Source: Corallium rubrum
Taxonomy: Eukaryota > Cnidaria > Anthozoa > Scleralcyonacea > Coralliidae
NCBI GenBank assembly: GCA_964035015.1
Contig: OZ035997.1
Location: forward strand, 26,672,788 to 26,736,787
DNA length: 64,000 nucleotides
Direction of reading: 5' to 3'
Shown here: one piece after another, positions 12,136 through 62,231 of the stretch
Layout of the letters: each line of letters begins with the position of its first letter
Position numbering within the stretch: position 1 is the first letter of the stretch
Position numbers and translations under genes: made by a program
Notes under the pieces: generated by a model
What the model was told of the DNA's origin: nothing
Database searches by the model: none
Seen by the model: the letters and a program-made list of their open reading frames with translations, nothing else

Positions 12136-13350
12136 TTCGAACGTAAGAGTTGGTAAGTAAGCTTAATAACTGCGTTGTGAATGTGAACTATTGTTTTGAT
12201 GTCTGCTTGATCACGTTTCCAAAATGACATACTGTAGCATCTCAGTAGAAAGCTCGGTACTCATATAAGTTAAAGGCTCAACGCTTTTCCCCCATAGAAA
12301 ATATAAGTATATGCACTGATAAACGGGCCAGTTGTCAGTGCATGCATATATATATAGTTTAACTTCCAAGTTTGTGCGCCGGCAACGTTAGGCGAGAATT
12401 ATAGCTAAAAACGTTTCTCTGTTGTGTTATAAAACTGATAATAGTTTGTTTTTTGTTTGTTATCACCAAACTGACCAATGTAGATGCATCGAACGAATAA
12501 TAGGATTCTAAAAGTTTTTGAATTCTGTGAGCTGACCTTATTTGTAGGTGTTTCAACATGACCTTGGTTTACGGTGTACCTATGCAATAACGCTTTAAGT
12601 TTTGATAGTTTTATATTCACCAGACATGCAAGTACCATGCAAACGTCGCCGAGCGTGGCAGCGCAGCTGAGCCAATATATATGAATGAGTTTTGCGGTTT
12701 TGTTCTTGCCAGTATTTTATCGCTATTTTCCCAATGTTATCTTAATATTGAACTGGTTTGTTTTGTTGTCAAATGATCTAAACAAAGTTTTATTTTCACT
12801 TTAAAGAGGCGGGCAGGTTGAACTGTTGAAGAACGGTCTTTTATAATTTGTCGGTGTTTCTGTGTATAATTATTGACCGTTCAATGCTCAAATGAACGTG
12901 ACGCATGATGAGTGAAGCATATAAGGCGGAGGGTTGTGGAATTTCCGTGTCTTGAAAACAGCTCCGCCTTGAGAGATAGACTTCCCTTAAATTAATGTTC
13001 CTCAAAATATTTAAGAAATTGCTGATTAACGTATGGCGACGGCTGATTATGAAAATATATTGCTGCTAATGTTTTTGATGGAACTTACGATAACCGACTG
13101 TTCGCTATTTTTGGTCTGTTCATATACATGTAGTGACCTTGTAGGACATACTGTTTTGCCAATTGCAATGACCTCCTCAGCTGGTGACGTCGTAATTCTA
13201 TATCCTGATTTTACAGTTTATATATAATTGCTAAGCACGAGGAAACACTGACAGTTAGCTTTCATCGTGAATGTCTCATTTGCCTCATGCACTCATCATA
13301 GTGTTATTGAATTTTATAGTTCCTCGCCGTTTTAAGTAATTTGCCCGTGT
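12136..13350. other. upstream flank of secreted EGF gene, no gene seen
   Basis: No coding exon recognised. Short ORFs here lack family resemblance. Regulatory sequence for the downstream gene may lie here but nothing specific can be named. Confidence 0.4.
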
Positions 13351-13352
13351 GT

Positions 13353-13360
13353 TATAAATA
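13353..13360 (+). promoter_or_regulatory. candidate TATA box of secreted EGF gene
   Basis: TATAAATA lies 105 bases before the proposed start codon at 13,465, so a start about 30 bases downstream would give a 5' UTR of about 80 bases. The alternative is a distant first exon spliced to the acceptor-like TAACGCAG ending at 13,450. Confidence 0.3.
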
Positions 13361-13464
13361 TACAAAACTGCCGTACGTGTAAAGGAATACTTGGTTGGAC
13401 TTGTTATAGTCTTCGTTATAAAGTAATTTACGCTGTTCCTTGGTGTAACGCAGCAAGTTACAGG

Positions 13465-14008
13465 ATGAGAATCGTGTACCTCATATCCTCCTTGGTTTGG
13501 TTGTTTGAAGTGTGTCTGGCTCGCAAGAAGCTTCATATTCCATACGATGTTCTTTCTACAGATGCCACTGGTTGGAAGACAATCGAGAAATCAAGTATCG
13601 TTCTTAAAAATGCCAAGATCTTTCCTACTGATCGACATTTGATGAAGCGTATTGCTTTAGTTGAAGCAACATTGAACCGAAGCACAACCGAGGGAGGTCT
13701 TTGGAATATGCCGACTCGCGCTTTGTACGATGTTACGCAAAATCGAAGAAAGTATGGTAAACCTTTGAAAAAAATTCATAAAGCTGTGCGCCGGAAATTT
13801 GGAGTTACCTGGTCCAGGATGACACCAGAACAATTGCGTCGTCCAATCTATTCTCTTATTGCTGCTCGAATGTATTTACACATGATGTTACTAAATGACA
13901 TTCCCAGGGGAGCAAAAGCGCAAGGAAAAGTGTGGAGTAGATACTACCATAATTATGGAACAACCAATGTTAGGGAAAGAAATCGTCTGACAAGTATTTT
14001 TAAAAAAG
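13465..14008 (+). CDS. coding exon 1: signal peptide and lysozyme/transglycosylase-like domain
   Basis: Encodes 181 residues and ends AAAAAAG|GTAATT in phase 1. The first Met is followed directly by a hydrophobic signal peptide. The domain carries the family pattern IFP-x-D-x(3)-M, IA-x-VE-x(8)-GG-x-W, a FG-x-x-W region and a late YYHNYG. Whether Glu67 is catalytic is unknown; the equivalent Glu of true transglycosylases sits in a similar hydrophobic helix. Reading through the donor extends the ORF to 14,121, which is probably intronic. Confidence 0.8.
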
Positions 14009-17000
14009 GTAATTGTTTTTTTATATATTTAAATAGTGTTCGCACCAGTGTGTCAAGGATGCTTAGTGTGTGTTTGATTTTGCCTGGGATGTCTGTTGTA
14101 ATTTTCTTAGAGATCTTGTGAACTGCATGCTGGGGTCCCACAGTCTTAATATATTGGGAAAACATGTCCGAACAGCCATTCATGGTGGTCAGCCGACACT
14201 GCTCGTTAAATTCTTGGTGGTCACGCGTAGTTTAAAAACAACCAAGCATATATTATTTATTGCGCTGTTGAGTTTAGTTTTAACTTTTCATAATTATTCA
14301 TTCTGATATTCGTACAAGTTACTGATTTTAAAGACGCCCGCGTTGGAAAATGTAATTATATTTTATATTTCTTGTCTGTTGTAGCTATTAGTAACGCGCA
14401 ATTCAAGGATTTCTATGGCAGACAATATGGCTCCATTCTTAGGATATGTCGTGCTAAGATACACATTGGCGTCGAGTTTATCATTCAAATCAGCCGATGC
14501 GCCACTTTAATATCATAGTTTGAGATAGTGGCCCGTTTTATCAAGCCTGTGCAGAGACAATAAGGAGTTATCTTTTTGCTAAGTAAACATGTCTGACGCA
14601 AATTATGCCCACAGTCGGGTTCCCCTTTGCGCTCTTCCGATATTTTATTGCTTAATCATCATTTCTATCTCTTAATCAGGTTTTCCTCTGCAAAGGGTAT
14701 CTTAACTATATTTGAAAGATTGATGAACTATAAAGTGAACTCTCTCACTTATTGCCGTGCCCAAATTTTAGAAATGTTTTCCAAGTGCTGACATCTACAG
14801 TAAAGATTTGTTTATTCGGTTACGAAATGCCGCCTTTAGGTCACAAGAACAGCAAAGATAGCGCGAATAAACTTCATTCCTTCTCTATTTTCATTCCTGT
14901 CTGTTAATATGTGTTCAGTTACAGTTTACGAACTTGTTTCAATTGGATCTTTAAACAGTGGAGCACACAACAGTGGTGTCAAATTTAATTGAGCACGTAA
15001 TCGCTTCAATCAAATTCAGTTTATGTGTTTTACCACAAAATTCTTCCTGCAAACAAAGAATGCGATTTCAGAAAAGTCAGACGATTCCCACGTTTTTATC
15101 ACATATATACACTTCTTGCTCCCGACTTTGCTTGACTCGTTTCAATTCTTATTTGAGTACAGTGATCTTAGAAGAAATCATGTACAATGTAGTTTAAACT
15201 ACATGCATAATTGGGCTAATTGCAACACTAACATTTAGTTTTGAAACGTTGACGCATTGTTTATTTGAATCTTTTTATGTAAAATTCATTTTGGAAAAAA
15301 TTCATATTAAATTGAACAGGTCTGGTTATTGACTATACTTGACCATAAATTGTTTATAGTCGTTTGATCACCGACTTACGGTTTTATGAAAACCCGCAGA
15401 TTAGTAATGACTATACATTGGATTTCCTGCTCGCATTGATCCGGCTGCGGTTTTACCAATTTCAGCAAAATTTTAATCACTGAGATTACTTATAACAAAA
15501 AATAACATATTTTTGCAAAAAAATAACATATTTTTTGCATGTGAGGCAAGTTTTGATACTTTGCTATGAAAATATGTAATAATATTGACAGATGAAACAA
15601 ATACATGACATCTGTTGAAAACATGAAAATACTCTGAGAAAGTAAATATAATATCAAAGGATAATTGTGATCCTTATCTTGACAAGGAATGCAAAGACAA
15701 GAATATTACGTCTGCATATGTGCTCCAAAAAAGCTACGTTTGACGTTTTTTGAACAAGAAAAGAGTTGAAAAGAAGCACGAGGAAACAGCCGACTCAGCC
15801 AGTCAGCCGAGTACCCTTACACTTCTTTCGTGATCAAATATAAAGTTTGCCTTTAAAACAATATGCACAGGGTGGTCAAAATACCATGGGCATCTGATAA
15901 GTTCTGCCTCTCCCTCTGGGCTGGGGTTTTTTGTCAAAGAACTTTTCTTTGGACTTATATTCGAGTTGCTAATTTTTGGGAAGGTTTAATAAGATTGGTG
16001 AGAAATTTTGCCTTATAAAATAAGTCATTTATTTATGTATATTATTGAGAATCTTATGGGTTTATTTTTGGGAGTGTTATGATCAATATATTAAAGAATT
16101 AGTATATTAAAGAATTAGTATATTAAAGAATATTTATTTTTAGGGGAGTTATTATTAGAGTGAGAATTAATTTTAGAAAATAAAAAAAATTATTGTATTT
16201 TATAAAATATCTTGAAGATGTGCCGTGTTTCAATAACCCAATGGAAACATAGAAAGGTTTACACCACTATACTCTATCATATGCTTACACCATCTTGATC
16301 TGTAAAAGAAGAAATTACACTTCTCTGAGAGTTAGTAATTAGGAAAGGAACAAAGGAACAGCATGTACTTTCACGTATTACTAATTTTCTACGAGATATT
16401 TTATCAAACTGAAATAGAGAACTGTGGCTTCTCGTTGTTCTATAAGGCTATAAGCTTTCACTCATGTTTATTTTTAAGAAACACTTTCTGTGCTATGTTT
16501 CCTTCGAGTCCATGCAGTATATAGAAAGCCTAGAAGAACGGGAAAGGACGGAGTGGGAATACGAGAGAATTTTACAGCTATTTCAAGTTTTTCTAGATTT
16601 TAACTCGATGGGAACTATAGGAATTTTATTTCTCTTTATAAAACAACTTGAACAAAATAAACAAAATGATCCAACATGCATAATAAATAACCTTTTTTAA
16701 GAATAATGTGTTCTTTCATTTTTAAGCGATCATTGTGTTTCCTAATATTACTTTATAAAACTCGATGTAGAAACGAAAGACGTTTTCTATTATAAATAAG
16801 TTTTGTGGAAACACCACGTAAAATATTTCTTTGCCAATATATATTTTTTTATATGGTGTTTTTCTATATTTTTTACGTGGTGTTTCCACAAAACGTATTT
16901 ATATTACATTATCGCCATAAAAACTTTCAAAGAATTAATATTTTCTATTTTTAAATACTATGTATCAAGACTTAGCCAAGATACAAGGAAGTATATGATT

Positions 17001-20000
17001 GAAGTATTGGAAGAAAACCCACTTATGCACCGCTAGCAAGCAAGTCTTCTTCATTGCCGTTTCACTATAATAATTCAAGGAAAACACAAAACCAGTTTAT
17101 TTTTGTTTACTTCGATAAAAACGTTTTGGTTGAAACTTCATTTGTACAGTAGAAAGATCTCGCAGTGTTTTCGGATTATCGAAAAGGAAATTGAATGAGG
17201 TAGTTATTGGGATCGTCGAGTGGTCGGGAGGAACATCAGATGCCAAAAATAAAGTATATTAAAAAGGATTTTTATATATATATTTCAAGTGCTACTCATC
17301 TAAGAACTAACACTTCTAAAATGAATACACGAGAATACCACACCTATTCGTAATAAATATAATTGCGTTTAATCGAGGCATATAGTCCTTAGAATTAAGT
17401 CGAGGTAACAAAATAAAACTACGTTCTTTCTTTCTGAACGCTTTTAAATTCGCGCTAGAAACCAGTTTGACTGGTTGGAATCATGTCCCCTCCTTGTGGT
17501 TTGATATTACAGATTAACAGACGAGATTAACGAAAGGATATTTCAAATAGAAAAAAATCCCAAGAACTCTCAAGTGTGAAATTCTGGTGATGTGACTGAA
17601 ATAGCGAAACCAACACACAGAAACTGTAAATAAAATTTCTACATTTCCGATATCGAGTTTCTAAGGTGAAAACTTCATAATGAAGAAATATTTTATTGAC
17701 ATTGCCCTTCACCTTCACCTCTAACCTTGAAACAAACTGTTGCCAACAATAAATCTTCTAAAGTAAAGAGTAGAACGCTCCGCACCTTTTCATCTGTCAC
17801 AACACACACTTGAGGTGGATTTCAGCAAGCACAATACCGTGACAAACATAAGAGTAACAGGTGGGTGTTGTGAATTAATACATAATAAGCCTCTAGCGAT
17901 ATATGTTTGGGCATGGTGAAAATTTTTTCAAGAACTTTTCGTTTAATTTGTTTTATAAATCAACATAGAAAAGATACATTAACGACTAATTGCTTTCCAT
18001 TCAGTCATAAAACAATGAATGCCATAAAAGGCGATCATAAATGTAGTTTTGTACTTTCTGATCATCACTTATTATATAGCAAACACATTGCCTGTCATGT
18101 ATTCATAAAATAGACAACTAACAACTTATCAGATCCTTAAAAAGTGTCGTAGTGCACGCTTTTTAGATATACTTCAAATTATCAGCCAATTTTGGATAGT
18201 CGGCGGCATATTGCAAAATAAGACGTTAATTACATGTTGGCCAAAATAAGATTGATGTTACAGACATAAAATATGTATTTAAATCTGAAACTTGACGTCG
18301 AACACTTGAACAACGGAAACAGGAGGAACTTTATTAGATGCATTGGTCTATATACAGTAGCGTCTTTGTTTGCAACAGTTTACAATGATTTTTTATTTGG
18401 TGCATAACATGCAGTCAGTGTTATGTATCTGTGGATATCGTTGGCGCATTTATTTAGCTTGAACTGTCATGAATTGTAATTACACTGATTAATTAGCAGC
18501 GAACATTCACGGTTTAAACATAACTAAAAAACTCTGCTTGTGCGACAAAACAGAGAACTGTTTAGATAGAGAAAGTATTTACTTAGGGACTGCTAATGCG
18601 GGTATCAGCGCCTTTCCCGAGGGGGCGACCCCCGGGGACCCAGGGGGATTTGTCAAAGTACCCTTGACAAAAGGATGCTAAAGCCCCTGGGTTGGGGGGA
18701 AATATTGTGACAAATACCCCCACCCCCTGGGGGAAATTTGGGAAACAATGTTTTCCAAAAGGAGACCTTCCAATGGTCATTTGCAAAGAAAATGCAATTG
18801 TGCTAATAGAAAGTCCACAAGAAAGCTTCAAAACTCGAAGAAAAGCCAGTTTAATAAAGAAATTTAATTACTACAAAGTCATACTGATATTAATAGTAAT
18901 ATTGATATTGATATCAATAAAGTACAGTGTGCAATTAGGCTATTAAAATGACAACTTTTTTAATAGACTTAATTTTGTATCAGCTGCTCGTGCAAACAAA
19001 AAACACTTTTAGTCATTACTGATATTCACAAAACGCTTAAAAAGTTTTCATCCTTAGTTTCAAACAAATATTCTTTTGTTTCCAACATTTACTGGTGATG
19101 GATGACTTAATTATTCATCCAAATATGAAGGATTCTTCAATTACAAACACTTACCTGACTACAATGCCAAAGACAGCTCCTGTTGTTCGTTTCTCGACGA
19201 ATCACCGCTGACCCATGTAACAGCAGGAGATGTGCAAATCCCGGGGGTATGTCCCCGGGGGTAATTTGACAAAAGACAAAAGTAGGCTAAATCCCCTGTC
19301 TCTGGGGCGTGATTTTAAAACAAATCCCGTGCCATGCCCGTGGGTTGCCCGTGGGTTGCCCGGGGGTCGCCCCCTCGGGAAAGCCGCTGATACCCGCATA
19401 AAACGTTGTGTGATAAATGGTTTGTTTGGGTTGGTGTAAAAGTCATCAAAGCAGGGCTGACCCTTTCTTCAGTTACATGCGGTTTTTCACTTCGGATGAT
19501 CAACGGTGTTAGCCTAGCTGGATATTTTTTTTATGAAATTGGTATATGTAGGCCAACACGATGATGTTAGAATCAGACTCAACAAGGCTATCCTCCAAAG
19601 ATAGAAGCTGCTAAAACTGTCAATATAATTATAACGACATAATTAAGTAGTAAAAGTACAAAGTCAAACACTAAATATGTAACAGAATATACAATAGGGA
19701 AATAGAATAATTATAGATATGCAGTTAACTATATAGCATGGATTGAAAAATTAGATTGACGACATGTATATGATACTTCATCATGTACGAATGTCATTGA
19801 AGGCTGACTTTAAAGTGCCCATGAAGAGAAAATTAAGTCAGTGTTATTTAAACGCGTGGTTCGGAAGTTAATAGTATCAAATTACGTTTCTAAATTCAGA
19901 AGTTCATTACGAAGTTCGCTGATTTGATGTTCAAAGTCCGATTCGAAGTTCACATTTACGGAAAACCTTCGGTCGACCAGACTTTCTTTTGATATGATTT

Positions 20001-22817
20001 CTTTCGGAAAGTATGTTGTTACTGATCATTCTGCAATTCCAACTTTACAACTTACCAACTGCATAGTCAAAGAATGGCGGAAAGCCGAACTTCGAATCGA
20101 ACATTCGAACTTCAAATTTGATACTTAGCAACGAACTTCTGAACCGCGCGTTGAAAAGTGAACTGAAATCGACAATAAAATGACAAAGCAACAACTTTTG
20201 CAATTTTTTGTCTTCTTGCTTTGTTTTTGAGATATTTTATTTTGTTTGATATGCAAATTAATCATCTTGACGTCAATATATATCTTTGGTATTTTCAAAC
20301 CAATGTAATTTAAAGAAAGTATGTCATTGTGGGTGTGTTTTTCCCACAACACCAAACATGTAGATTAGATATTCAAGTGATTATGTTTGATAATAGCAAA
20401 AATATTTATAAAATAAGGTGTCCCCTACACACGCTCTGATTGGCTGGTCTCCGTGCATTTATAAGAGTATGAAGATCATGAATGACGTAAAATGGCGTGG
20501 AGTGGCGTAGGATGGCGTCACGTGGCGGAAAATCTAGCGAACTTTCAAAACTATCCCACTTTTAGCTTGTTTTTTCTTATTATTATTTTATAAAACAAAT
20601 AAAACATACCGCTCCTGTGCATATGTACACTTATAAAGGTTCGTTTGACGTCATTTGGGCACGAAATAATTGTAATACTCTACTCAACTTCTTTCGGGCT
20701 CAGATGACGTCAAACGAACCTTCAAGAGTACATATGCACGGAGCTTTATGTTTTATTTGTTAAATAATCTTTTCCGATAAGTCGTTATGCACATGTGATG
20801 TCAAGATTTTTAATTTGCATATCAAACAAACTAAAGTATCTCAAAAACAAAGTAAGGAAACGAAAAACTGTAAAATATGTTACTTTGAGTCTTTGTCATT
20901 TTAAAGGTTCTTTCAAAAAGACAGACTTAATTTTCGCAGCTACTTAATTTATATCTACTTTAAGTTCATCAGATTAGAAGATGAAGAGGATTGCAAAATA
21001 CGAACAAAGTTGGAATCACGAAAGGTAGAAGTCTGTGCTGGTATAAGACAAAGGTCTATATAAACCTGACAATCCTCTACAAGTTTTAGAGTTAGAGAAT
21101 TGTAAGAAACCAGAAATGTCGCGTAAGATCCCGCCTTTATAAAAACAAGAGATGAAGTGATACTTGAGAAATAAGAAGAAAGAATCGTGTGAATCATTCT
21201 GGTTTTGTAATCAAATTTCAAAGCGCGCAAAATAAATCGCATCGTCTTCTTTTGCATGCATGCACCCGCTCGATATTACACATGCATAAGACAGATACAA
21301 CCAAAGCACAAAGGCGACCATGCAGGCTTGGCTATAGCGAGAATAGCGTACGTTAAACGAGAACGAAGCACAAGGTGAACGAAGATGTTAAAGTAGTTTA
21401 AGCAGGATGTACCAAGTAAATTACTTGGAATTGGAAACTGAAAACAGTTGAATTTTACTGGGGTGAGCCATTGAACTCTATGGGGTGAGCATATTCAAAT
21501 TACTATTTCAAAAGGGCCAATTAGTTTTCTTTAATTGGAGAAATTGTTCAACCATGCAGGTCTCTAAAGATGTTCAGAGAACGTTATAAATTTTTCACCC
21601 ATTTGGTTGGGAGCGCACTGTGGTATTTGAACTCAGGTTAAAATCCTAGGCGGTGATATATCTTGAACTGACCACTCCACTTGGGATAGCTTGCACCTAT
21701 CACATCAATGTAAATTGGTGGAAAAATAACTTACCATTTGCACCATTGAATGGAGGGACCAGACGAGTGGTGTGTAAAGGACGAAGAAAAAAATCAAATT
21801 TTCCGAGCAACAGAATGTACGTCTGGCTGCTTGTCTACGTATATGCACTATACCGGTCTCCCAATAACCACCCCCGACTATCTAGCTGTTAACCTTGGTT
21901 ATTGCATAACCCCACTAAATATAAATATTGACTGATGCTGTCGTACAATATTTTCTGCTGATTTTCTTCTTTTCTTTTTTTGATAGTTGTACGAGGATCA
22001 TGCCACAGTAATTACAAAAAGTGCGAACATTATTGTATTGAAGTTTCTCTTGGTCGAGGTGAATGTAAATGTAAAGCACACTTCAAGTTAGATTCAGACG
22101 GGAAATCTTGTAAAGGTAAGAATAAATTTTTTTTGACTATAAAACATTACCACCTGACATTTTGAAAAAAAAAATTATTGAGTATGTAATAGATCCACAG
22201 TTAGCTAGTGCAATTTACACGTGGTCTTAGTAACTATCTAAATAAAGTTAATTTGTAGTCTAAAATCAATATCTTAATTTATTTACAATCTTAGGGGGCC
22301 TGAGGTTGAGAGCCAACCCGGGTTAGCTCGCCAACCCGAGTCAACCCGTCTACGAATAAACCCTTGTTCGCGTTTACACGATAGCCAGGTCAACCCGTCT
22401 TGCCGGGTGACCCTTTTCAAGACCCGGGTCGACCCGGGTTGGAGAGGTGCGACGGTGCGGAACTTTGATCAATTCCTTCATGTAAACATGGGTTGCTTGA
22501 CCCGGGCTAACGCGCAGCACCTTTAAACCTGTAGACGCATGTGCGCAGTGCTTCTGTAAAGTGTTGGCAATATCGTAATTTTTGTTGAGAAAAGCTGACC
22601 CAGGGTTAGGAAAAGCTGACCCGGGTTGGGAAAAGCTGACCCGGGGTTGGGAAAAAAGCAGCCAATCCGGTTCATGTAAACACGAAAAAAGAATAACCAG
22701 GGATGGCGAGCTGACTCGGGCGAGCTGACTCGGGCTGGCAGTCGCACTCAACCAGGGCTCGTGAAAAGGCCCCCTTAAACTATGTCCACGAATGTCTCTG
22801 GAAAAATAAATCAATAG

Positions 22818-22849
<32 letters not shown>

Positions 22850-23617
22850 AAATAAATAAATGTATTTAAAAATATGCAATCAAATCAACTCAGGAAGATA
22901 TGAAGTTGAAGGAATTATGACGTTGAATAAGGTTGACGGTGATGGTGGTGATGCCATACCATGCAGTTAGAATGACATCAACTTTTCCCAGTGTCAGCAG
23001 TAAAAAGTGTCAGTGTTGACCGTTGTTGTACAGAAAAATATACACCTTTAAGAAATCTAATTTACCTTTCAGCGGCATCATATAAAAATCCATGTACTCT
23101 GGACAATGGGAAAGTTTGCGAGCACTCATGTCTCCGAGCTTCTATGACGGTATTGTGTACATGTCCTGATGGACATTACCTTCACAGGAATCGCTATAAA
23201 TGCGTTGGTAAGTCATAAAAAGTTTCTACTGTATAATGTAAAATTTATTTGGCTACTAACTCATGTGTTTCTGTAGGCACGGCCACCGAGAGACAACCGG
23301 AGGGAGGGAGGGAGGGAGGGAGGGAGGGAGGGAGGGAGGGAGGGAGGGAGGGAGGGAGGGAGGGAGGGAGGGAGGGAGGGAGGGAGGGAGGGAGGGAGGG
23401 AGGGAGGGAGGGAGGGAGGGAGGGAGGGAGGGAGGGAGGGAGGGAGGGAGGGAGGGAGGGAGGGAGGGAGGGAGGGAGGGAGGGAGGGAGGGAGGGAGGG
23501 AGGGAGGGAGGGAGGGAGGGAGGGAGGGAGGGAGGGAGGGAGGGAGGGAGGGAGGGAGGAGGGAGGAAGGAAGGAAGGAAGGAAGGAAGGAAGGAAAGAA
23601 AGGAAGAAAGAAAGGAA

Positions 23618-23671
<54 letters not shown>

Positions 23672-23673
23672 AA

Positions 23674-23745
<72 letters not shown>

Positions 23746-26700
23746 AGGAAAGAAGAAAAGAAGGGGGAATTAACGAAGGGGAAGGTATGAAGGAGGGAGG
23801 AAACGAAGGGCAAGTTAATATTTTTATCTTTTTAGATGTTAATGAATGCAGCATGTCACCATGCCAGCACGAATGCCACAACACTCAAGGTTCTTACTAC
23901 TGTACTTGCTTCTCCGGATATTCCCTTCAATCGGATCGAAAAAGATGCAGAGGTATAAATAAATCTTTTTCTACAATTTTGTGCATTTTTTCAAGGCTTA
24001 TTAGTCTATTTGTTCTGTGCTTACCATTTGAAGATGTAAGCCTTGTACTATTATTGTATGCATGGATGCATAGTTTAGCTTTGATTATATTCTTGATAGT
24101 AGCCCTGATTATATCCCGTATTGAAGCCCTGATTATATTCGTGATCAGTAGCCCTGATTCCAACCCTGGTTATATCCGTGATCACTAGCCCTGATTATAT
24201 CCGTAATCAATAGCCCTGATTATATCCGTATTGTAATCACTAGCCCTGGTTATATCTGTAATGAATAGCCCTAATTCCAGCCCTGATATAGCCGTGATCA
24301 GTATAGCCCCCTGATTGTTTAATTGATATTAATATCAGATGTTTGTGTGTAGCTAACCGACGTGATGATTGTACGTCATCAAATGATCCCAGTTGTGCTA
24401 GACGCTGTCTTCGTATGACAAGCGATGGTCCTTGTACCTGTCCTCCAGGAATGGCACTGCACAACGACAATGAAAGTTGCATTGGTGAGTATTAATAAAG
24501 AGAGATAACATTTAGAAAACTATTATCTACAATTACTTTCCTAATACAGTACGTAATGCACATGCATGTCTCAAATATTATCAACCGTAATCTTTTTTGC
24601 ATAACGTAAAATGCGCACATTTCCATGACCGGTCTCCGTGCATGGCCCGTCATCGTGCATAGCCGGTCTCCGTGTATATGTATGCATGGCCGATCTCCTC
24701 TAAGTATAAAGGAACTCAGTCATATTGTCAGCTCACGTCGTTGCACTCATCAACTATTTTGTCTTTAAATAACGCCAAACGGGTCTTAATAGGAGGGGGG
24801 GGGGGGGGGTGAATAGGGGTATCCAAATCCACCGATCCGCTAAAATATGATAGAAAATACGCCGATCCGTCAGTATTTTTACAAAAATCCGAATCCTATT
24901 TTAAGATTTAAATAGAAGTACATACATCACAAGGGGCTTTTCAAGAGCAATTTACACATTGAAATTTTAACATGGCCGAGACCCCGTTTACACGATGCCG
25001 GTACAATTTGAAAACGGAACAAAACCATGCCGTTTAGGCCTAGTGTTTACACGATACCGGCACAAAAATGACGTGAAAACGGCACAAAATGAAGACGGGT
25101 CCCTTGACGGCATGAAATGAAAACGAACACTAACCGGTATCGTGTAAACGCCCGTGCGTGACAGTTTGTTGACGGTAATCACGATATATACTACCACAGT
25201 ATTCAGGTCAGCAGTATTCACAAAGTCTTCGCAATTCTCATTGGACGAGAATAGTCACATGCTAATCCGTCATTATATTATACCGGCACCGCGTAAACGC
25301 AAGACATTTTATCCTGTATTTACACATTGGCATGATTGTGTTCCGTTTTCAAATTGTATCGGCATCGTGTAAACGGGGTCCGAGTCGAATGCACATTAAA
25401 GGCGCTCCAGGCAGCCGCCATACGGCACATATTGGACCACAGTTTACAGCTAAGAGCTGGTGTTGGTTTTGCGGATGGAGGAAAACCGGAGAACCCCGCG
25501 AAAAACCCCCGAAGCACAGGAGAAACCAACTAAACTCTACTCATATGAGTCTCAAGCTCGAGAACAGGGTTATTCCTGGACGGTCACTCATCCAAGTACT
25601 AACCCCGTCCAATCGGGCTTAACTATTGGTGAGAGGCAGCGCCCTAACAGCACACGCCAACCGTGCTCCCCTAAGTAAAAGTTAAGACGGTGTGGTTAAA
25701 AAACACAATAATAAATGATTATTTCTATATAATGCACATGTCTCCAGAGCCCCAAGATAATCGCTAGGGACGAAAACCTAGCAAATAAGGCTATAAATGC
25801 ACAACCTCTATCCTTTGCAGAGGTTAAATTTCAGAGATTGGAGGTTTCGGGGGTCGTTGGAGATGCTCGGAGGCGTCAGCTGGATGAAGGGATAGAATAC
25901 ATTAGCCCGGCTAACCGGGCTGAACTTTGTAACGAAAATTTTTCCTGGTTCGGAAAAGGATATTTCAATCAACTTTAGGATGACTTGACCTAAACCAGTT
26001 TTTCATTGAAAATTTATTTTTTTGCGAATAGTAATATCTTAACAAAAAAATCGCAGTAATATCTCAATAAAACTAGTCAGCCAGATTAAGCGGGTTAGCT
26101 CATGTACATTCCTTTGTAATTAACAAATTTTCTGTTCTTTCAGAGAGCAATGGTTGTCTTACATCTGAAGGATTTTGCCATCATAGTTGTTTGAGAACAC
26201 CTGCTGGGTTTTCTTGCGCCTGTAATAAAGGATTTATGCTCGATAGTAATTCCGTTACTTGCACAGGTATGCCGTTTCAAATAAACAATTGAAATTATTT
26301 TCATCAGCACAACATATTTTCTGTATCGTTACGTGAGGGACCAGCGGCGGATGTCGAATATCCCTGTCCATGCTGCAGTATAAATAAACACGAAATACAG
26401 TGGAACCCCGTTAATACGATAACCGAGCAAAAAATGAAGTCGTATATAGACCATATTTATAAATGGCCGTAGAATTAAATTAAATTAAATTTAGCATTTA
26501 TGAACTCGTTTTCATGTGCGAAATTCAAAAGAATCTTTACTCTAAAAGGATGTCAGAGGGGCTAATTTATATGTACATAAAAGGATTTTAAATCGTCGGC
26601 CATTTTATGAATAAGGTCTATTAACGGGGTGTTCATATTAATGGGGTGGTCGTATGACAGGGTTCTACTGTAAATCCATAAAGAAAGTATTATTTTTGGT

Positions 26701-27533
26701 TACGGCTTTCTTTCGTGTTCTTAAATGACATCTTATTTTTACTTATGGTTTTCGTTTCTGCTTTATGCTGAACATTATAAAAAAAGGATTTCTGTGCTTA
26801 ACTGACAGCAGGTTATTGCAGGAACAAGACAGTATTGAGAGACTGAAACCGACAAACAAGTTGACAATCTTAGATAACACGCTATCAAACATTTGCGCCT
26901 GTGTTAGTTTTACGACGAAGGCATGGTAACAATTAGAACCAATAAGAGAAGATCTTAAAGCAAGACTCGAAATTACTTCTATTATTTAAAAAGGTTATAA
27001 AAATAGAAAGGGGATAAACTCGGAATGTTTTACAATGTTATCAACGAAATGATTTTTGTTCAAAACGTTATAAACCTTTTACAATCCGAATTTCGGTTCT
27101 ACATCAATATTTAAATTTTTCGATTCATAAAAGATTTGCCTAAGTTAAATAACCTCACATTTCAGTAGTTTCATTGTGTGCAATAAACATTAGCCTTTTC
27201 TAAACACAGTTGAGTTTATTTTATCCATGCGTAGAACTTTTGATGGCGACGTAATCTTGAATTAAAGTTTTTGGCTGGGAAGTTTTTAACGTTTCAGTTT
27301 TCCACAGAGCTACCAAGCCCTGTTTCTCTCGATTTGTTTTCTCGATATTCTTTTTTTTTTCTTGGTCTTTTTCTCGACTTTTTCTCTAAATTTTTGCCGA
27401 TTTTTTTCGTGACTATTTTTCTCGATTACTTTCTTAGCTTTCTCTCTGCCAATTTAGGGTGGGGTCGGTGGAGTTAATAGCTTTTGTATTACGGTTGGGG
27501 TGATGGTTGCAATTACGTTTCAACTTTAGTCTG

Positions 27534-27615
<82 letters not shown>

Positions 27616-29936
27616 TTACTTAGAAGTGCAGAATGCAGGTTGAGGTGTTTGGAAAGTATTCTGATAATAATGCACTTGCAGACAAAATTAATTAACTGTT
27701 GCACGAAATTCGGCGACCTTTTTATAAAGACTAATTCGGTTTTTCTATTTAGAAAAATTCCTTTGCAGACAAAAATCTAATTACTTTTGCATTTTTCCAA
27801 ACTTTTATGGAACATAATTATATAATTGATTAATGATTTTCGATTGTAATTATATTTCAGATATCGATGAATGTGCAATTGGTGAACATTCTTGTCAAAA
27901 AGGTTGTTTGAATGTTCCTGGAGGATACCGATGTACATGTCCTATTGGATACAAGCTAAATAAAGATGGCAACACTTGCTCTGGTATATATAAAAATTAT
28001 TTCGCTAAACTATACATCTTCATGCTACGATTCTAAATGCTTTGATTAATTTACATTGATATTTACGTTGGTGAAGATAATCGAGGTTAAAGAGTTTTAA
28101 TGAACTTGTACTGTCATGGGTACAAAATCTCTTTTTGAAGTTTTACTAAATTGGTCAGGCTGAAGAATCTACTGCTAATTGCAACAATATTTAAGGAACA
28201 CTCACCACAGTAACAAAACGAGTGTCAAATTCACGCAGCTGGGTTTTGTTTTCTTAATTTAGGTTAGCTTTCTTTAGCCTGCTATTGAGAAACAACGCCT
28301 GCTTTACCAGACTAAGCTTTCTTTTCATTGAGTTGCAATAATCTAGTCAAATTAATATGTTATTTTTTCTTATATTTATAGATATCAACGAATGCTTGCT
28401 GAAATCTGGTCTCTGTAAATTTCCATCAAAATGTCGGAATACAGAAGGAGACTACAAATGTGAATGTCAAACTGGATACATGTTTGACGCAGTACATAGC
28501 TGTATTGGTAAGTGTTCTTTTTGAAATTGTTTATTCTAGTTAGAAATAGAGAATCTCCGGAGTGAAGAAAATAATTATAAATCCATGAAAGTAAGTTTTA
28601 CAAGGCAATCTTGTCCCTTGGAAGTCAGAATAGAGGTGTACGGCTGAACCTTTGAAACCATGACCCTGTTTCAGACCATAAGGACATAAATATTTTCATG
28701 ACCGTACGTGTCTCAGAAAACTGGCAAAAACAGAAAAAAACTAAAACATACCTAGTTGCCAGGCCAAATAACTAGCCATACCAAAGGTAATTTATACAGT
28801 ATACATACCCAGCCAGAATTTTGAAAGGGGGGGAGCCGAAATCAAAATAAATTTTTAGGGGGTCCAGGGGCATGCTCCCCCGGGAAATTTTGAAATCGAG
28901 AGTCGCTGAAATACCATTTCCTGTCTTTTGGAGGTCGATTTTACAGATTCTAAAGGTTAAAAAACGTCATAAAATACTCAAAACACGCAAACGTCACATA
29001 GATACTCAAAATGCATACACTCAGTAGATTGAATACACTGTTTACAGTTTATTTCCTGACACAATTCATATTGCATCAGTTTTGTAGTTACATGTCTGTC
29101 TTGGCCGCGGCTCCCCCGGCTCCCCCATGACTACGTCCCTGCTTTAAGAATGGACCATGCATACCCTGACAAGCAGCACGTTCTCGTGTAGCTAATATAT
29201 TAATTACAGTGCTTTGCGCGGAAAGTTTGCAATTTGGAAAGGGGGCAGGCACCGTTTAAGACATATTTTACGAAAAATTAACATCAACAATATAGCTAGT
29301 CCTTCCTGCAGGTTTCTCGTCGCCGACTGTTTTACACAAATTCAAAAACGGTCTTTTCTGATAGGAAAACGCATTATTGTTATTTGTGAATTATTAATTT
29401 TTACTATTGATTTGATTTCGATTTTAAGTATACATTTTATATAGTATTTGAACATCACTTTGTGTCGTTCTCTAGACATTAATGAATGTGCTGTTAACAA
29501 TGGTGGATGTGAACAGACGTGTCATAATGTTCCTGGTAGTATGCAATGCGGTTGTATTGCTGGATATCGTTTGAGCAGTGCCAAGACATCATGCGAAGGT
29601 AGGTATATTTGTGCCAACACTAGACTTGGCTTAGTTTTGCTTTATGGTTTCTAATTTATGAACTTTTATGAACACAGGCAAAATTTTGCAACTTTTCTAG
29701 TGATTTTATTTTCGCTCTAATTTTGAGGCTTCCCATGCATATATTTTTCAAATGTTAGGATTATTTTATTAATAACAAACAATAATTCAATTTCTCTTTT
29801 CTTGTTTTCAGATATCGATGAATGCTCACAGTTTACTGCTATCTGTGGCGACAAATGTATTAACACTCCTGGTGGATACACATGTACCTGCCCCCCCGGG
29901 AAAATGAGTATTGACAATGGAGCGCTATGTTTATAG
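13465..29936 (+). CDS. secreted protein: lysozyme/transglycosylase-like domain plus nine EGF repeats (10 coding exons)
   Basis: Proposed join: 13465-14008, 21987-22115, 23073-23207, 23836-23952, 24353-24484, 26144-26266, 27861-27983, 28382-28507, 29476-29598, 29812-29936 (558 aa plus stop). Seen: a signal peptide (residues 1-19, hydrophobic, ending CLA), then a domain at about residues 52-165 resembling the lysozyme/transglycosylase-like domain of many uncharacterised cnidarian secreted proteins (IALVEATL with Glu67, GGLW at 77-80, AARMYL). Nine six-cysteine EGF modules follow. EGF 3, 6, 7, 8 and 9 start with the D-(I/V)-(D/N)-E-C calcium-binding signature; 1, 2, 4 and 5 do not. Every EGF exon is symmetric, phase 1 at both ends. 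There is no transmembrane segment, so extracellular matrix or mucus is the likely place. The 8-kb gap between exons 1 and 2 is the weak point: the EGF part could belong to a separate gene whose first exon was missed. Confidence 0.65.
14385..14518 (+). CDS. candidate alternative terminal exon
   Basis: A pyrimidine-rich tract and GTTGTAG acceptor end at 14,384. A phase-1 reading frame (matching exon 1) then encodes 44 residues beginning [17 protein letters not shown] and ends in TAG at 14,516-14,518. It contains two cysteines and no good internal donor. Spliced to exon 1 it would give a 225-aa secreted protein without EGF domains. It could instead be the true last exon of a two-exon gene, making the EGF exons a separate gene. 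Confidence 0.5.
14519..16760. other. intron 1, no further exon recognised
   Basis: AT-rich. Contains a three-fold TATTAAAGAATTAG repeat near 16,088-16,130. No coding exon with family resemblance was found, although a short signal-peptide exon could be missed by eye. Confidence 0.4.
16775..16950. mobile_element. foldback MITE, family member 1 (second copy at 36.6 kb)
   Basis: GTTTTGTGGAAACACCACGT at about 16,800 is complemented by ACGTGGTGTTTCCACAAAAC ending at about 16,895. The right flank (ATTATCGCCATAAAAACTTT) also occurs as the complement near 36,570-36,590, so two copies of the same element lie in opposite orientation. Confidence 0.75.
16951..18595. other. intron 1, no gene recognised
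   Basis: AT-rich sequence with short meaningless ORFs on both strands; no repeat ends defined. Confidence 0.4.
18596..19399. mobile_element. 804-bp MITE with ~38-bp terminal inverted repeats
   Basis: The left end starts ATGCGGGTATCAGCG and continues CTTTCCCGAGGGGGCGACCC; the right end is its complement over about 40 bases with one mismatch. Inside, a segment at about 18,641-18,735 is echoed in the same direction at about 19,250-19,345. No transposase and no clear target duplication. Confidence 0.8.
19851..20152. mobile_element. ~300-bp MITE
   Basis: The left end AACGCGTGGTTCGGAAGTT is complementary to the right end GAACTTCTGAACCGCGCGTT with few mismatches. Internal TTCGAAGTTC-type repeats occur. 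Non-coding. Confidence 0.7.
20177..20902. mobile_element. nested foldback elements
   Basis: The outer arms (20,177-20,275 and 20,797-20,902) are complementary (AAAATGACAAAG against CTTTGTCATTTT; TTTGATATGCAAATTA against TAATTTGCATATCAAA). Inside, a second inverted repeat spans about 20,590-20,764 (GGTTCGTTTGACGTCAT against ATGACGTCAAACGAACC). The two centres differ, so one element probably inserted into another. Confidence 0.7.
21987..22115 (+). CDS. exon 2: EGF domain 1
   Basis: Acceptor TTTGATAG, donor AAAG|GTAAG, 129 bases, phase 1-1. Six cysteines in EGF spacing with [16 protein letters not shown] at the end. Lacks the calcium-binding DxDE start. First EGF module after the long intron. 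Confidence 0.8.
22294..22774. mobile_element. Harbinger-like MITE with TTA target duplication
   Basis: Starts GGGGGCCTGAG and ends AAAAGGCCCCC, flanked by TTA on both sides (22,291-22,293 and 22,775-22,777). The interior repeats GACCCGGGTTGG-type units in both orientations. 481 bp, non-coding, within intron 2. Confidence 0.65.
22818..22862. repeat. AAAT tetranucleotide microsatellite
   Basis: (AAAT)n with one interruption. Confidence 0.9.
23073..23207 (+). CDS. exon 3: EGF domain 2
   Basis: Acceptor TTACCTTTCAG, donor GTTG|GTAAGT, 135 bases, phase 1-1. Six EGF cysteines including [16 protein letters not shown]; no calcium-binding N-terminal motif. Confidence 0.8.
23302..23757. repeat. compound AGGG / AAGG / AAAG microsatellite
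   Basis: About 260 bases of (AGGG)n pass into a short (AAGG)n and then about 160 bases of (AAAG)n. Strong purine asymmetry over 450 bases, located between EGF exons 3 and 4. All long ORFs here are repeat artefacts. Confidence 0.95.
23836..23952 (+). CDS. exon 4: EGF domain 3, calcium-binding type
   Basis: Acceptor TTTTTAG, donor AGAG|GTATAA, 117 bases, phase 1-1. Starts DVNEC and carries C-x-N-x(4)-Y-x-C, the consensus for Asp/Asn hydroxylation and calcium binding. Confidence 0.85.
24095..24312. repeat. degenerate tandem repeat, TAGCCCTGATTATATCCG unit
   Basis: Units of about 22-30 bases built around AGCCCTGATTATATCCGT and GATCA repeat about eight times with drift, ending just before the acceptor of the next exon. 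Confidence 0.8.
24353..24484 (+). CDS. exon 5: EGF domain 4
   Basis: Acceptor GTGTGTAG, donor ATTG|GTGAGT, 132 bases, phase 1-1. Six cysteines with [16 protein letters not shown]; lacks the calcium-binding motif and has RRDDC instead. Confidence 0.8.
24980..25380. mobile_element. Harbinger-like MITE with CGA duplication
   Basis: GACCCCGTTTACACGATGCC at the left is complemented by GGCATCGTGTAAACGGGGTC at the right, with homology extending through AAATTGTA..AAAACGGAAC (about 42 bases). Flanked by CGA on both sides. The GTTTACA(C/T) end theme is shared with elements at 11,690 and 37,915. Confidence 0.75.
25385..25680 (-). mobile_element. SINE-like element with 5S rRNA-like head
   Basis: Read on the minus strand, the stretch GGTTAGTACTTGGATGAGTG followed by ACCGTCCAGGAATA closely follows the 3' half of animal 5S rRNA (GGTTAGTACTTGGATGGGAG, ACCGCCTGGGAATA). 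Downstream in sense is a region with CCGGTTTTCCTCC, like the core domains of some animal SINEs. Known family: SINE3-type elements use a 5S-derived Pol III promoter. The 5' half of 5S is poorly preserved and the ends are approximate. Confidence 0.6.
26144..26266 (+). CDS. exon 6: EGF domain 5
   Basis: Acceptor TGTTCTTTCAG, donor ACAG|GTATG, 123 bases, phase 1-1. Six cysteines with [16 protein letters not shown]; lacks the calcium-binding start. Confidence 0.8.
26398..26670. mobile_element. pogo/Tigger-like MITE with TA duplication and nested foldback
   Basis: The left end CAGTGGAACCCCGTTAATAC and right end GGGTTCTACTG match the CAGTxGAACCC ends of the pogo/Tigger (Tc1-mariner) group; both flanks are TA. 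Inside, TAGACCATATTTATAAATGG (about 26,447) and CCATTTTATGAATAAGGTCTA (about 26,610) form a second inverted repeat, suggesting a nested insertion. Confidence 0.8.
26671..27533. other. intron 6, nothing recognised
   Basis: AT-rich; a T-rich stretch with TTTTTCTCGA repeats lies at 27,340-27,450. No exon or element ends seen. Confidence 0.4.
27534..27612. repeat. TA dinucleotide microsatellite
   Basis: (TA)n with a single GT interruption. Confidence 0.95.
27861..27983 (+). CDS. exon 7: EGF domain 6, calcium-binding type
   Basis: Acceptor TATATTTCAG, donor TCTG|GTATA, 123 bases, phase 1-1. Starts DIDEC and contains [12 protein letters not shown], the hydroxylation/calcium-binding consensus. Confidence 0.88.
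28382..28507 (+). CDS. exon 8: EGF domain 7, calcium-binding type
   Basis: Acceptor TTTATAG, donor ATTG|GTAAGT, 126 bases, phase 1-1. Starts DINEC and contains [12 protein letters not shown]. Confidence 0.88.
28800..29130. mobile_element. decayed G/C-rich MITE
   Basis: Begins around CCAGCCAGAATTTTGAAAGG with a G run and ends around CTCCCCCATGACTACGTCCCTG. The phrase GGTCCAGGGGCATGCTCCCC, then AAATTTTGAAAT and ATTTCCTG, recurs (often inverted) at about 42,610, 56,640, 57,150 and 57,510, defining a dispersed family. Ends not exact. Confidence 0.5.
29476..29598 (+). CDS. exon 9: EGF domain 8, calcium-binding type
   Basis: Acceptor TTCTCTAG, donor GAAG|GTAGGT, 123 bases, phase 1-1. Starts DINEC and contains [12 protein letters not shown]; Met replaces the usual aromatic residue of the hydroxylation consensus. 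Confidence 0.88.
29812..29936 (+). CDS. exon 10: EGF domain 9 and stop
   Basis: Acceptor TTGTTTTCAG. Starts DIDEC, contains [12 protein letters not shown], and the stop TAG (29,934-29,936) comes one residue after the sixth cysteine. The protein therefore ends flush with the EGF module, with no tail, GPI signal or membrane anchor. Confidence 0.85.
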
Positions 29937-30430: not shown

Positions 30431-31350
30431 AGCCATAGAGATCATATAAATACTAAAGGGGGCATTGGCGTAAAAATTTGGTAACCACATGGCAGCCGCC
30501 ATTACCTATGATATTTCAGTCAATTGGTGAGGTATCATCGGTTTCAAATTATGAAGCTTAACCATCTAATAAAACCATCCCACAAGCGGGATGTTAAACT
30601 TGAACACATAAAGGTAAAAACTCTATAGCGGTGTTGTGGTCGGGGTATGAGAGGTGGGACATTTTTCCGGAGGGTTGTGGTTAGGTTTCCGGAGGGTTGT
30701 GGTTAGGTTTAGGGTTTCCGGGGTGTGTGATTAGGTTTAGGGTTTCCGGGGGGGGGGGTATGGGGGTGAGGTTTCATTTAAAAAGGTTGTCTAATCAGAT
30801 GGTGGTTTTAGTAGTTGGTTAAGCTTCATAATTTGAAGGAAATGATAGCTCAATTGGTTGGCAAATGTACTAGACCCAGTCCTTTGCCAACAAACGCTCC
30901 TAATGTTTGCCTCCAAAAGAAAGAAAGATGGCGGCGTTTAATTGGTTACCCGCACTGATCTCAAAAGAAGACTGGATAATGCAACCTATTGTCCACTGGT
31001 TCATAGAATGAAGCCAGCTGAACAAAAGAAATCCGCCATTACTAAGGGACAAAACATGCTGAAAAATGTCTTTATGTCTTCTTAAAACGACTTCTGTTTC
31101 CAAAAAGAATATTGAACTATATTTTATTTCAAAGATTCAGTATCTGATTCAACAAAATGTTTATATCGGTGCCAGAATACGCTAGAAAGACCATCACTTG
31201 GTCCCTTAGTAATGGCTGATTTCCGGCTTCATTTTTTAAACAGGTATACTTAATCCAGTATTATTTCGAGATCAGTGGTTACCCGCCGCTGACTGAAATT
31301 AAGATAGGATGCCCCCTCTAGTATTTATATGATCTCTATGACTGAAGCCA
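30430..31350. mobile_element. ~900-bp foldback element with nested inverted repeats
   Basis: ATAGAGATCATATAAATACT at the left is complemented by AGTATTTATATGATCTCTAT at the right, followed by a shared GGGGGCAT. Inside lie two further inverted pairs: AAGCTTAACCATCTAAT-like arms (about 30,553 and 30,820) and GGTTACCCGCACTGATCTC against GAGATCAGTGGTTACC (about 30,940 and 31,270). A short TTTCCGGAGGGTTGTGGTTA repeat sits at 30,660-30,760. Confidence 0.7.
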
Positions 31351-59534: not shown

Positions 59535-62231
59535 CGTAGAATATACTACTTTTTTTTTGTTTTTTGTTGGGGGTTTGTTTGGTTGGTTGTTTTTTTTGGG
59601 GGGGGGGGGGGAGGGGAGGGGGGAGGCTCGTGAAATTTGACCGGTCAAAAATCGCCTTTGACTGGTCACAATTGTAACTGACCAGTCATGACCGGCGTAA
59701 CATGAAACGTTATTTTGAGCCCTGAATGTGCCACACCCAGTCAACTCTATTATCCATAATTACATGTATCTGGAATGATAATTTCAGTCATTATTACACT
59801 TCAAAAGTGAAGTAAGGATCTTTGTATCAGGATCACGTCGGATTGATGGATTCAGTCCTCTACATTGTGTGTTACGGTGTTACCTTTTGACCGTGTAGGG
59901 AGCTGTTTGTAGAGGGGGACTGAAAGCGACGTATTATACTGTACATTAGCTCACTTCACTTTCTGCCCCGGAGACAGAGTTTCTGTTCCAGTTATGAAAA
60001 TTGAGTTCACTGGCTCTGCAGCCTATCACGTAGGTCTTACAGTAAGTCATCATACCTGTAACTAAGACATTTCTCTATACACGCCTGGTTGTGACAAGAT
60101 ATCATGCTCAACTTTATTCCCAGTTTAGGGAAAATGTTCTAAGAAAATGCTTCCTTTAGTGTAGCATAACATGACAACATACTGTACATATCGGAACATT
60201 TTATAGTAGCGGTCTAGCGGAACGTCTTATAGAACATGTCTTACGACATAGTAGAATGTCTTACTAAAAAGCGTAACGTTTTATAGCGTAGCGGAACATT
60301 TTATAGCAAAGAGGAACGTCTTACGACATAACATAACGTCTTACCACACAATATAGCGCAGCAGAACGTCTTACGACATAATAGTATCACGTCTTACCAC
60401 ATATACAGTATAGCGTAACGTTTTATAGCGTAGCGCAACGTCTTGCAATGTACTGTAGCAAAACGTTTGCTTTGCATTTTCCCATTTCACTTAAATTTTC
60501 GAAATATAGTAAGGTTAGATATACTGCCGAAACAGAGAACGTAGGAGTCTGTCAGAGAGGAACGTGGAAAATAAAATAAATGCTTCGCAAATTGCCAAGT
60601 TTGAACGACATATACATTCATTATAGGAATACAAAATATACCCTGGATGACAGATGTTTTTAAAAGAGGTGGAAATGTTGGAAGGTTTTATGCAAGATTG
60701 AACGTGTTGTATACAATGGTTGCATGCATGTGCAGCATAGAAAACGTTGAACGATACATTGTGTATAAGTTTCTCATACAGAATAAAACTCTTTGATATA
60801 CTGTATGTAATGAAGGGAGTGTGAAATTATAGACAAACCCATTTTCGTTCTCAAACGCCGCAGAAGGGAATGGATGTACATAAATAGCGCTTTATTGTAC
60901 ACTGTAGTCCCAACAATGAAAGCAAAAAACTGGAAATTTGTATTATCAATCAAAAGAGATTTTAACTTTGGCATGGAAGTGCGATTCTGACACATTGCTC
61001 GATGCTGCCAAACGTTTTTCGCGTATCGTATCGCGTTGCCTTCTTCTGGTCTTCACTAGCTAGAGTAAGAAAAAGCAAGCAGTTTACAGTCAAGATGGAA
61101 AGACCTTCCCACTTTCGCTTCGGTAAACCGTTGTTGATTTCAGTACTAACGATTGATAAGTTGTCAATTACAATTGCGCTTTCAGAAATGCTGTATTGTC
61201 TCTTGTTTGACCTCGCGGAAAAGATTGGATGGCGAGCATTTTTCAACGATTGTATTCTACAAAGATTGCTTTGCCCGGTTGGTAGATACATCTACGCAAA
61301 TTTCTCTTATAACTCTTTTTTTTTTGCAGTATACGGTAAGTTCTACCCGGTCTACTACAATCTTCTGTAACCGCCGCAGTATTTTTGAAAATGGGTCCGT
61401 AATTGACAGTCATTGAATCGTTATTATTGAAATGCACAACGGTTTACAGAAGCGGAAGTGGGAAGGTATTTCCATTTTGACTGTAAGTGTAACAGCATTT
61501 GAAAAATACGCCACTCTTCCAGATGTGATGTACATACAGTTCAGTACTACAGTATTTTACCGGTTCTGCAAGTGTTTTAGTTTATATAAAACTCTCTTCT
61601 TAATTTCTAAAGTGCATTACTTAATGTATGTTTCTAGTGAAGATATGTATGCGCAAGAGTCCATTGAACTACTTGATCGTTCAGGAATAAAATTTAAGCA
61701 ACATGAAGAACATGGGATAGAAGTTGATGACTTTGCTGAACTATTGATGACGTCAGGAGTTGTTTTAAGTGATGATATCAAGTGGCTTTCTTTTCACAGG
61801 TACAGTATACAATTCAAATACTGTAGTGAAATCACATGAATTTGTGTCATTCAATTAAAAAAACCCCAACTCAATTACGCGGTTAGAATTCAAGTGTGGG
61901 ATGCAGGGGTTTTTTCGTTCCCTGTTGTTGTTGGTAAACTGCCAAGAATAGTTTTAGTAACAAAACACTGACGTTCCGAGCAGAGTCCTTCATCAGAGTA
62001 AAATGTCATGAAATGAAATAAAACAGGGTTGCCACCTTTTAAATTTGCTCTATCTAAAACACTGCCTAGTGCATGCCCACACACCACACAGTACAATTTT
62101 TTTTGCTGCAAGTCTTCAAAAGTGGTAATTCTGCATGTATATGCTTTTATTTTTCCGCGTGTGTTGCAGTTATAAAGCGCATGTCAACTCTTATATTATT
62201 ATTATTATTATTATTATTCTTCTTCTTCTTC

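Follow-up and report, generated by a model that had tools for sequence, protein, structure and literature searches.

A predicted secreted protein of Corallium rubrum that pairs a phage- and bacteria-type lysozyme-like domain with nine EGF modules

How does an animal genome come to hold a lysozyme-like domain of a phage and bacterial lineage, is this domain joined to the row of EGF exons downstream of it, and does it still cut? These questions are raised by a stretch of 64,000 nucleotides from Corallium rubrum (GenBank assembly GCA_964035015.1, contig OZ035997.1, positions 26,672,788 to 26,736,787 of the forward strand; the window), in which an earlier note had proposed a secreted protein pairing a lysozyme/transglycosylase-like domain with nine EGF modules. 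With a probability of about 0.6 we read the locus as a gene for a single secreted animal protein with an SLT/GH23-like N-terminal domain of the phrog_3108 lineage, a lineage otherwise met in phages and bacteria in the present searches, and nine C-terminal EGF modules, the EGF row serving as anchor and the groove binding glycans. The predicted product has 558 residues and is built from the following elements.

13465..14008, + strand: exon 1, with ATG, signal-peptide-like leader (residues 1-19/20) and lysozyme-superfamily domain spanning approximately residues 50-175 and retaining Glu67; phase 1 at the exon's 3' end
14009..21986, + strand: putative intron 1, 7,978 bases, GT..AG
21987..22115, + strand: EGF 1 exon, without calcium signature
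23073..23207, + strand: EGF 2 exon, without calcium signature
23836..23952, + strand: EGF 3 exon, calcium-binding type (DVNEC), EGF_CA 39.1 bits; donor weak
24353..24484, + strand: EGF 4 exon, without calcium signature; weakest EGF match of the row
26144..26266, + strand: EGF 5 exon, without calcium signature
27861..27983, + strand: EGF 6 exon, calcium-binding type (DIDEC), EGF_CA 48.5 bits; donor weak
28382..28507, + strand: EGF 7 exon, calcium-binding type (DINEC), EGF_CA 35.8 bits
29476..29598, + strand: EGF 8 exon, calcium-binding type (DINEC), EGF_CA 32.2 bits
29812..29936, + strand: EGF 9 exon, calcium-binding type (DIDEC), EGF_CA 38.8 bits; terminates at the stop codon

Searched as a single sequence, exon 1 matched no Pfam family at E ≤ 10 and thus did not reach the cut-off of SLT (PF01464, GH23). 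Its sole PDB match (E 0.88) and an NCBIfam DNA-glycosylase match (13.1 bits versus a cut-off of 192) were judged to be chance. Against PHROGs, residues 59-163 matched phrog_3108, a family of 'unknown function', with an E value of 8e-5 (4.4e-5 when trimmed). Searching phages by tblastn yielded one record, an open reading frame (ORF) of a huge phage (LR756504, E 0.5), which became the lead to the family; a first scan of viral contigs with exon 1 gave one stretch that matched a pattern and no relatives, and within the window tblastn found no further copy, the only matches being two stray ones at E 3.6. Relatives were then gathered outward from the huge-phage ORF across phages, plasmids, viral contigs, and bacterial and archaeal genomes. 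They were present in 18 phage records (the query's own included), 181 plasmid records, Klebsiella accounting for 172, in 45 viral loci found with one alignment, in at least 492 of 600 stretches confirmed with a second alignment (the best 80 of the 492 being kept), and 43 loci in the genomes of bacteria and one archaeon. Exon 1 scores 36.7 bits with a profile made from 65 phage and viral domains after removal of the window row, as against 3.4 bits for the top-scoring of 200 shuffles, and plain phmmer pairs it with a Myxococcota protein (L136) at 44 bits (E 1.1e-12 in a set of 946 ORFs), no shuffle exceeding 14.1 bits. When eight relatives were scanned for SLT (PF01464), L170 alone came near with E 0.015 and 15.3 bits versus a cut-off of 21.3. 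The profile of the whole family matched goose-type (g-type) lysozymes in the PDB, with a best E value of 0.0026, and places the Glu67 column on the Glu of the g-type ESHAG motif. As to the relatives themselves, the 30 plasmid rows listed are mostly about 54 kb and resemble phiKO2-type plasmid prophages, the domain occurs both in small proteins that consist of it alone and at the C-terminus of viral proteins of 671-937 residues (L013, L103, L111, L115, and L123), and an Endozoicomonas genome carries a tandem pair of overlapping family genes (L159, 2917-3892).

The phage context of phrog_3108 is suggestive only. In the Salmonella phage PMBT28 the family gene is adjoined by matches to a holin and to an Rz-like spanin, the best match of the second being a family of unknown function, and no endolysin or lysozyme product is named in the records of phiKO2 and PMBT28, which contain many unnamed genes. 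The count of lysis genes compared 63 genes adjoining the family gene (47 viral loci) with 63 of 145 distant genes. Among the families listed, holin families matched two members and one member of the near genes and one member of the far genes, and one far gene weakly matched an endolysin family, so that in these viral loci lysis genes are not clearly more frequent next to the family gene than at a distance.

The predicted structure of the exon 1 domain is a mostly helical, two-lobed lysozyme fold; the model is confident, though built on relatives, and the neighbours listed are almost all lytic transglycosylases, lysozymes, and their kin. The earlier note had suggested a lysozyme/SLT-like domain in exon 1, to be checked by structure prediction against these folds, and the claim is borne out by this fold, by membership in the phage and bacterial family, and by the g-type profile match; Glu67 and the GGLW motif also stand where the note had placed them. 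To describe the active site we used an alignment of 90 rows, in which each named column has a letter in 87-89 relatives, including two pieces of a second C. rubrum copy on another contig (C12). Glu67 closes the first core helix, and all 88 relatives with a letter in its column have Glu there; the g-type ESHAG Glu, with which the column aligns, is the catalytic residue. Residue 81 is Asn as opposed to Gln in 88 of 88 relatives, so that the G-x-x-Q motif, which we take to be the GLMQ motif of GH23, reads GGLWN, and residue 162 is His as opposed to Asn, again in 88 of 88; the two columns presumably correspond to the GLMQ and AYN-type motifs. Altogether, Gln81Asn, Tyr156Val, Lys158Ser, Asn162His, and Gly167Thr alter columns in which at least 98% of the relatives share one residue. 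The acidic column after the Gln (Asp in 59% and Glu in 41% of 88 relatives) is occupied by Pro83, or by Thr84 in the phmmer alignment. At this column, the one compared with the acidic residues that g-type lysozymes have beside the Glu (Asp86 and Asp97 in goose lysozyme), exon 1 has no acid. Arg135, Pro147, Trp157, and Tyr161 are kept. Judged from the sequence, the putative acid is retained while much of its surroundings has changed. The loss of near-invariant residues speaks against full cutting activity; the earlier note's protein acting on bacterial or host glycans remains a suggestion as far as cutting is concerned.

Exon 1 is contained in the longest ORF of the window that is not of tandem-repeat origin (13336-14121, 261 codons from stop to stop) and starts with what is, by eye, a hydrophobic leader of 19 residues. 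This frame and the nine EGF exons exist as described in the earlier note, with all nine introns having GT-AG borders and phase 1. On a position weight matrix the donor at 14008 scores 3.38, making it the top GT between 13600 and the end of the exon 1 frame (runner-up 0.88) and ranking it among the highest-scoring 1.8% of all GTs of the window; of the nine donors, those at 23952 (-1.15) and 27983 (-0.8) are weak on the same matrix. A scan for leader exons (ATG, hydrophobic stretch, and phase-1 donor), which leaders split across two exons escape, identified exon 1 as the sole match in 13000-14121; no leader-type exon turned up in the first 13 kb, nor in 14122-21980 even at a donor threshold of 0. 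As 14008 is the best donor and intron 1 yielded no other leader-type exon, a join of 14008 to 21987, placing exon 1 and the EGF exons in one transcript, is the simplest model. The D-x-D/N-E-C start and an EGF_CA match above the Pfam cut-off are found in five of the nine modules (EGF 3, 6, 7, 8, and 9), while EGF 1, 2, 4, and 5 have no EGF_CA match at E ≤ 0.01, in agreement with the previously proposed division into five modules with and four without the calcium signature. Likewise, the EGF part does end flush with the stop codon, which lies one residue past the sixth Cys of EGF 9; the nearest AATAAA downstream is at 30568.

The second copy was identified in a search of 474 Mb of the genome (312 contigs) and is located on C12 at about 14,275,780-14,276,456 (L135 1363-2042, minus strand), with 34% identity over residues 90-168. 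It retains the Glu, Gln, Asp, Lys, and Asn of the canonical active site and has, by eye, a leader-like start. The copy is spread over two overlapping reading frames, the part with the Glu lying in one and the part with the Gln in the other in the current assembly, which reflects either a pseudogene or an assembly error. A search of the genome with the phrog_3108 profile returned this copy as sole candidate and missed exon 1 despite the match at the protein level; the genome may hold further copies.

In a tree of 85 rows the window row and a C12 piece fall, not as sisters, into a clade of eight rows (support 99/87) alongside two Myxococcota, one Rhodospirillaceae, and three viral rows. The window row has the longest terminal branch of the tree (2.49), and since this branch is long and the bootstrap unsettled a finer reading is unsafe and no donor can be named. 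Uptake from bacteria or phages is nevertheless the likely source, as far as the sequences tell. Endozoicomonas, a coral associate, is not supported as donor because its rows (L146 and L159) are located elsewhere in the tree.

The chief rival to a glycan-binding protein is a functional antibacterial enzyme, a secreted muramidase or lytic transglycosylase in which Glu67 would be the sole general acid/base, without need of a catalytic Asp, and which the EGF row would tether. Lytic transglycosylases depend on one Glu, and the invariance of Glu67, the four further kept residues, and lytic transglycosylases as nearest predicted folds are all consistent with such an enzyme. However, the Gln and Asn present in every relative with a letter there are replaced by Asn and His, and Lys158, Tyr156, and Gly167 are altered as well, leaving this explanation doubtful. 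The same five losses, together with the long terminal branch and the two weak donors within the EGF row, might instead point to a gene decaying on its way to a pseudogene, but no stop interrupts the 181 codons of exon 1 or any of the nine EGF exons, every intron is GT-AG, and the structure model is confident, even if built on relatives, so that we regard decay as very improbable.

A different possibility is that two genes are present, one a single-exon secreted lysozyme-like gene made up of exon 1 and its continuation to the stop codon at 14121, the other a separate gene in which the EGF exons follow a first exon of their own. The domain is complete within exon 1 and the next exon is 8 kb away; moreover, the C12 copy holds both halves in one stretch without an intron-sized gap, and the 17.5 kb retrieved around it, including about 9.3 kb on the downstream side, yielded no EGF exon. 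Yet the best donor of the frame, at 14008, matches the phase of the EGF exons, no other leader-type exon was detected upstream of the EGF row, and the residues past 14008 are, by eye, unlike the tail of the C12 copy. We consider two genes unlikely, less so than decay.

In the preferred reading of one secreted protein, the EGF row, partly stiffened by calcium, would anchor the product in matrix, glycocalyx, or mucus, a plausible candidate role, and the lysozyme-like groove at its end would bind β-1,4-linked amino-sugar chains such as peptidoglycan or chitin-like polymers, probably binding today more than it cuts. For the groove itself we lean slightly towards little or no cutting; a working but altered enzyme is the less probable option, and something else less probable again. 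This suggests a captured microbial enzyme reused outside animal cells. Tentatively, cnidarians, which inhabit dense microbial communities, may have acquired a bacterial or phage family of cell-wall lysins distinct from animal g-type lysozymes, one secreted copy keeping the ancestral active site and another, carried on an EGF rod, becoming a glycan-binding head that is altered or no longer cuts, and so a 'pseudo-lysozyme' of matrix or mucus that meets microbes. A lysozyme lineage of phage and bacterial type in an animal genome would be a new candidate for the encounter of cnidarians with bacterial walls, and phrog_3108, a large phage family, would gain a testable role as a cell-wall lysin. Should the EGF-linked copy indeed bind but not cut, it would clearly exemplify how the fold of an enzyme is put to new use in recognition.

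Elsewhere in the window, 76 further ORFs, 15 of which lie inside intron 1, were compared with Pfam and gave a single match each to CAF1 and to CRT-like, the ORFs concerned being unspecified. The CAF1 match has an E value of 4.1e-6, and 61417-61836 (+ strand) resembles by eye an exon of a CAF1-type ribonuclease. The genome to which the window belongs contains a GFP-like exon (PF01353, E 1.7e-8), as would suit a cnidarian, though GFP-like proteins occur in other organisms too. The intron before the EGF 3 exon contains a GGAG array (74 copies) followed by a GAAA array (50 copies) at 23299-23762. No Rfam family at gathering score and no tRNA were found in the window.

A protein combining lysozyme and EGF parts is not described in the open-access PMC titles and abstract openings searched. 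Goose-type (GH23) lysozymes share with the family profile the superfamily fold, the invariant Glu, and the GxxQ-acid stretch and are likewise animal and secreted, but the similarity is far too low for membership, as the PDB match at E 0.0026 holds for the whole family profile only, exon 1 alone giving the chance-level match mentioned above. PMC11576321 describes g-type genes from two soft corals but none from the other cnidarians examined there, whereas PMC12855814 lists Cnidaria among the early animals with g-type lysozymes and derives the animal g-type from bacterial transfer; 'egf' does not occur in either paper. The lytic transglycosylases MltE, Slt, and phage phiKZ gp144 have 10-16% identity and were not matched in the single-sequence search. 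Poly-EGF and fibropellin-like proteins of the Nematostella matrisome (PMC12549020, in which the word 'lysozyme' does not occur) similarly place EGF rows in the cnidarian extracellular space. Finally, the phrog_3108 proteins, among them phiKO2 Gp54, the PMBT28 ORF beside the holin and Rz-like genes, the LR756504 huge-phage ORF, and the bacterial relatives, share the domain at residues 59-163 with exon 1, and 88 of 88 relatives with a letter there, a C12 piece included, retain Gln, Lys, and Asn at the positions where exon 1 has other residues.
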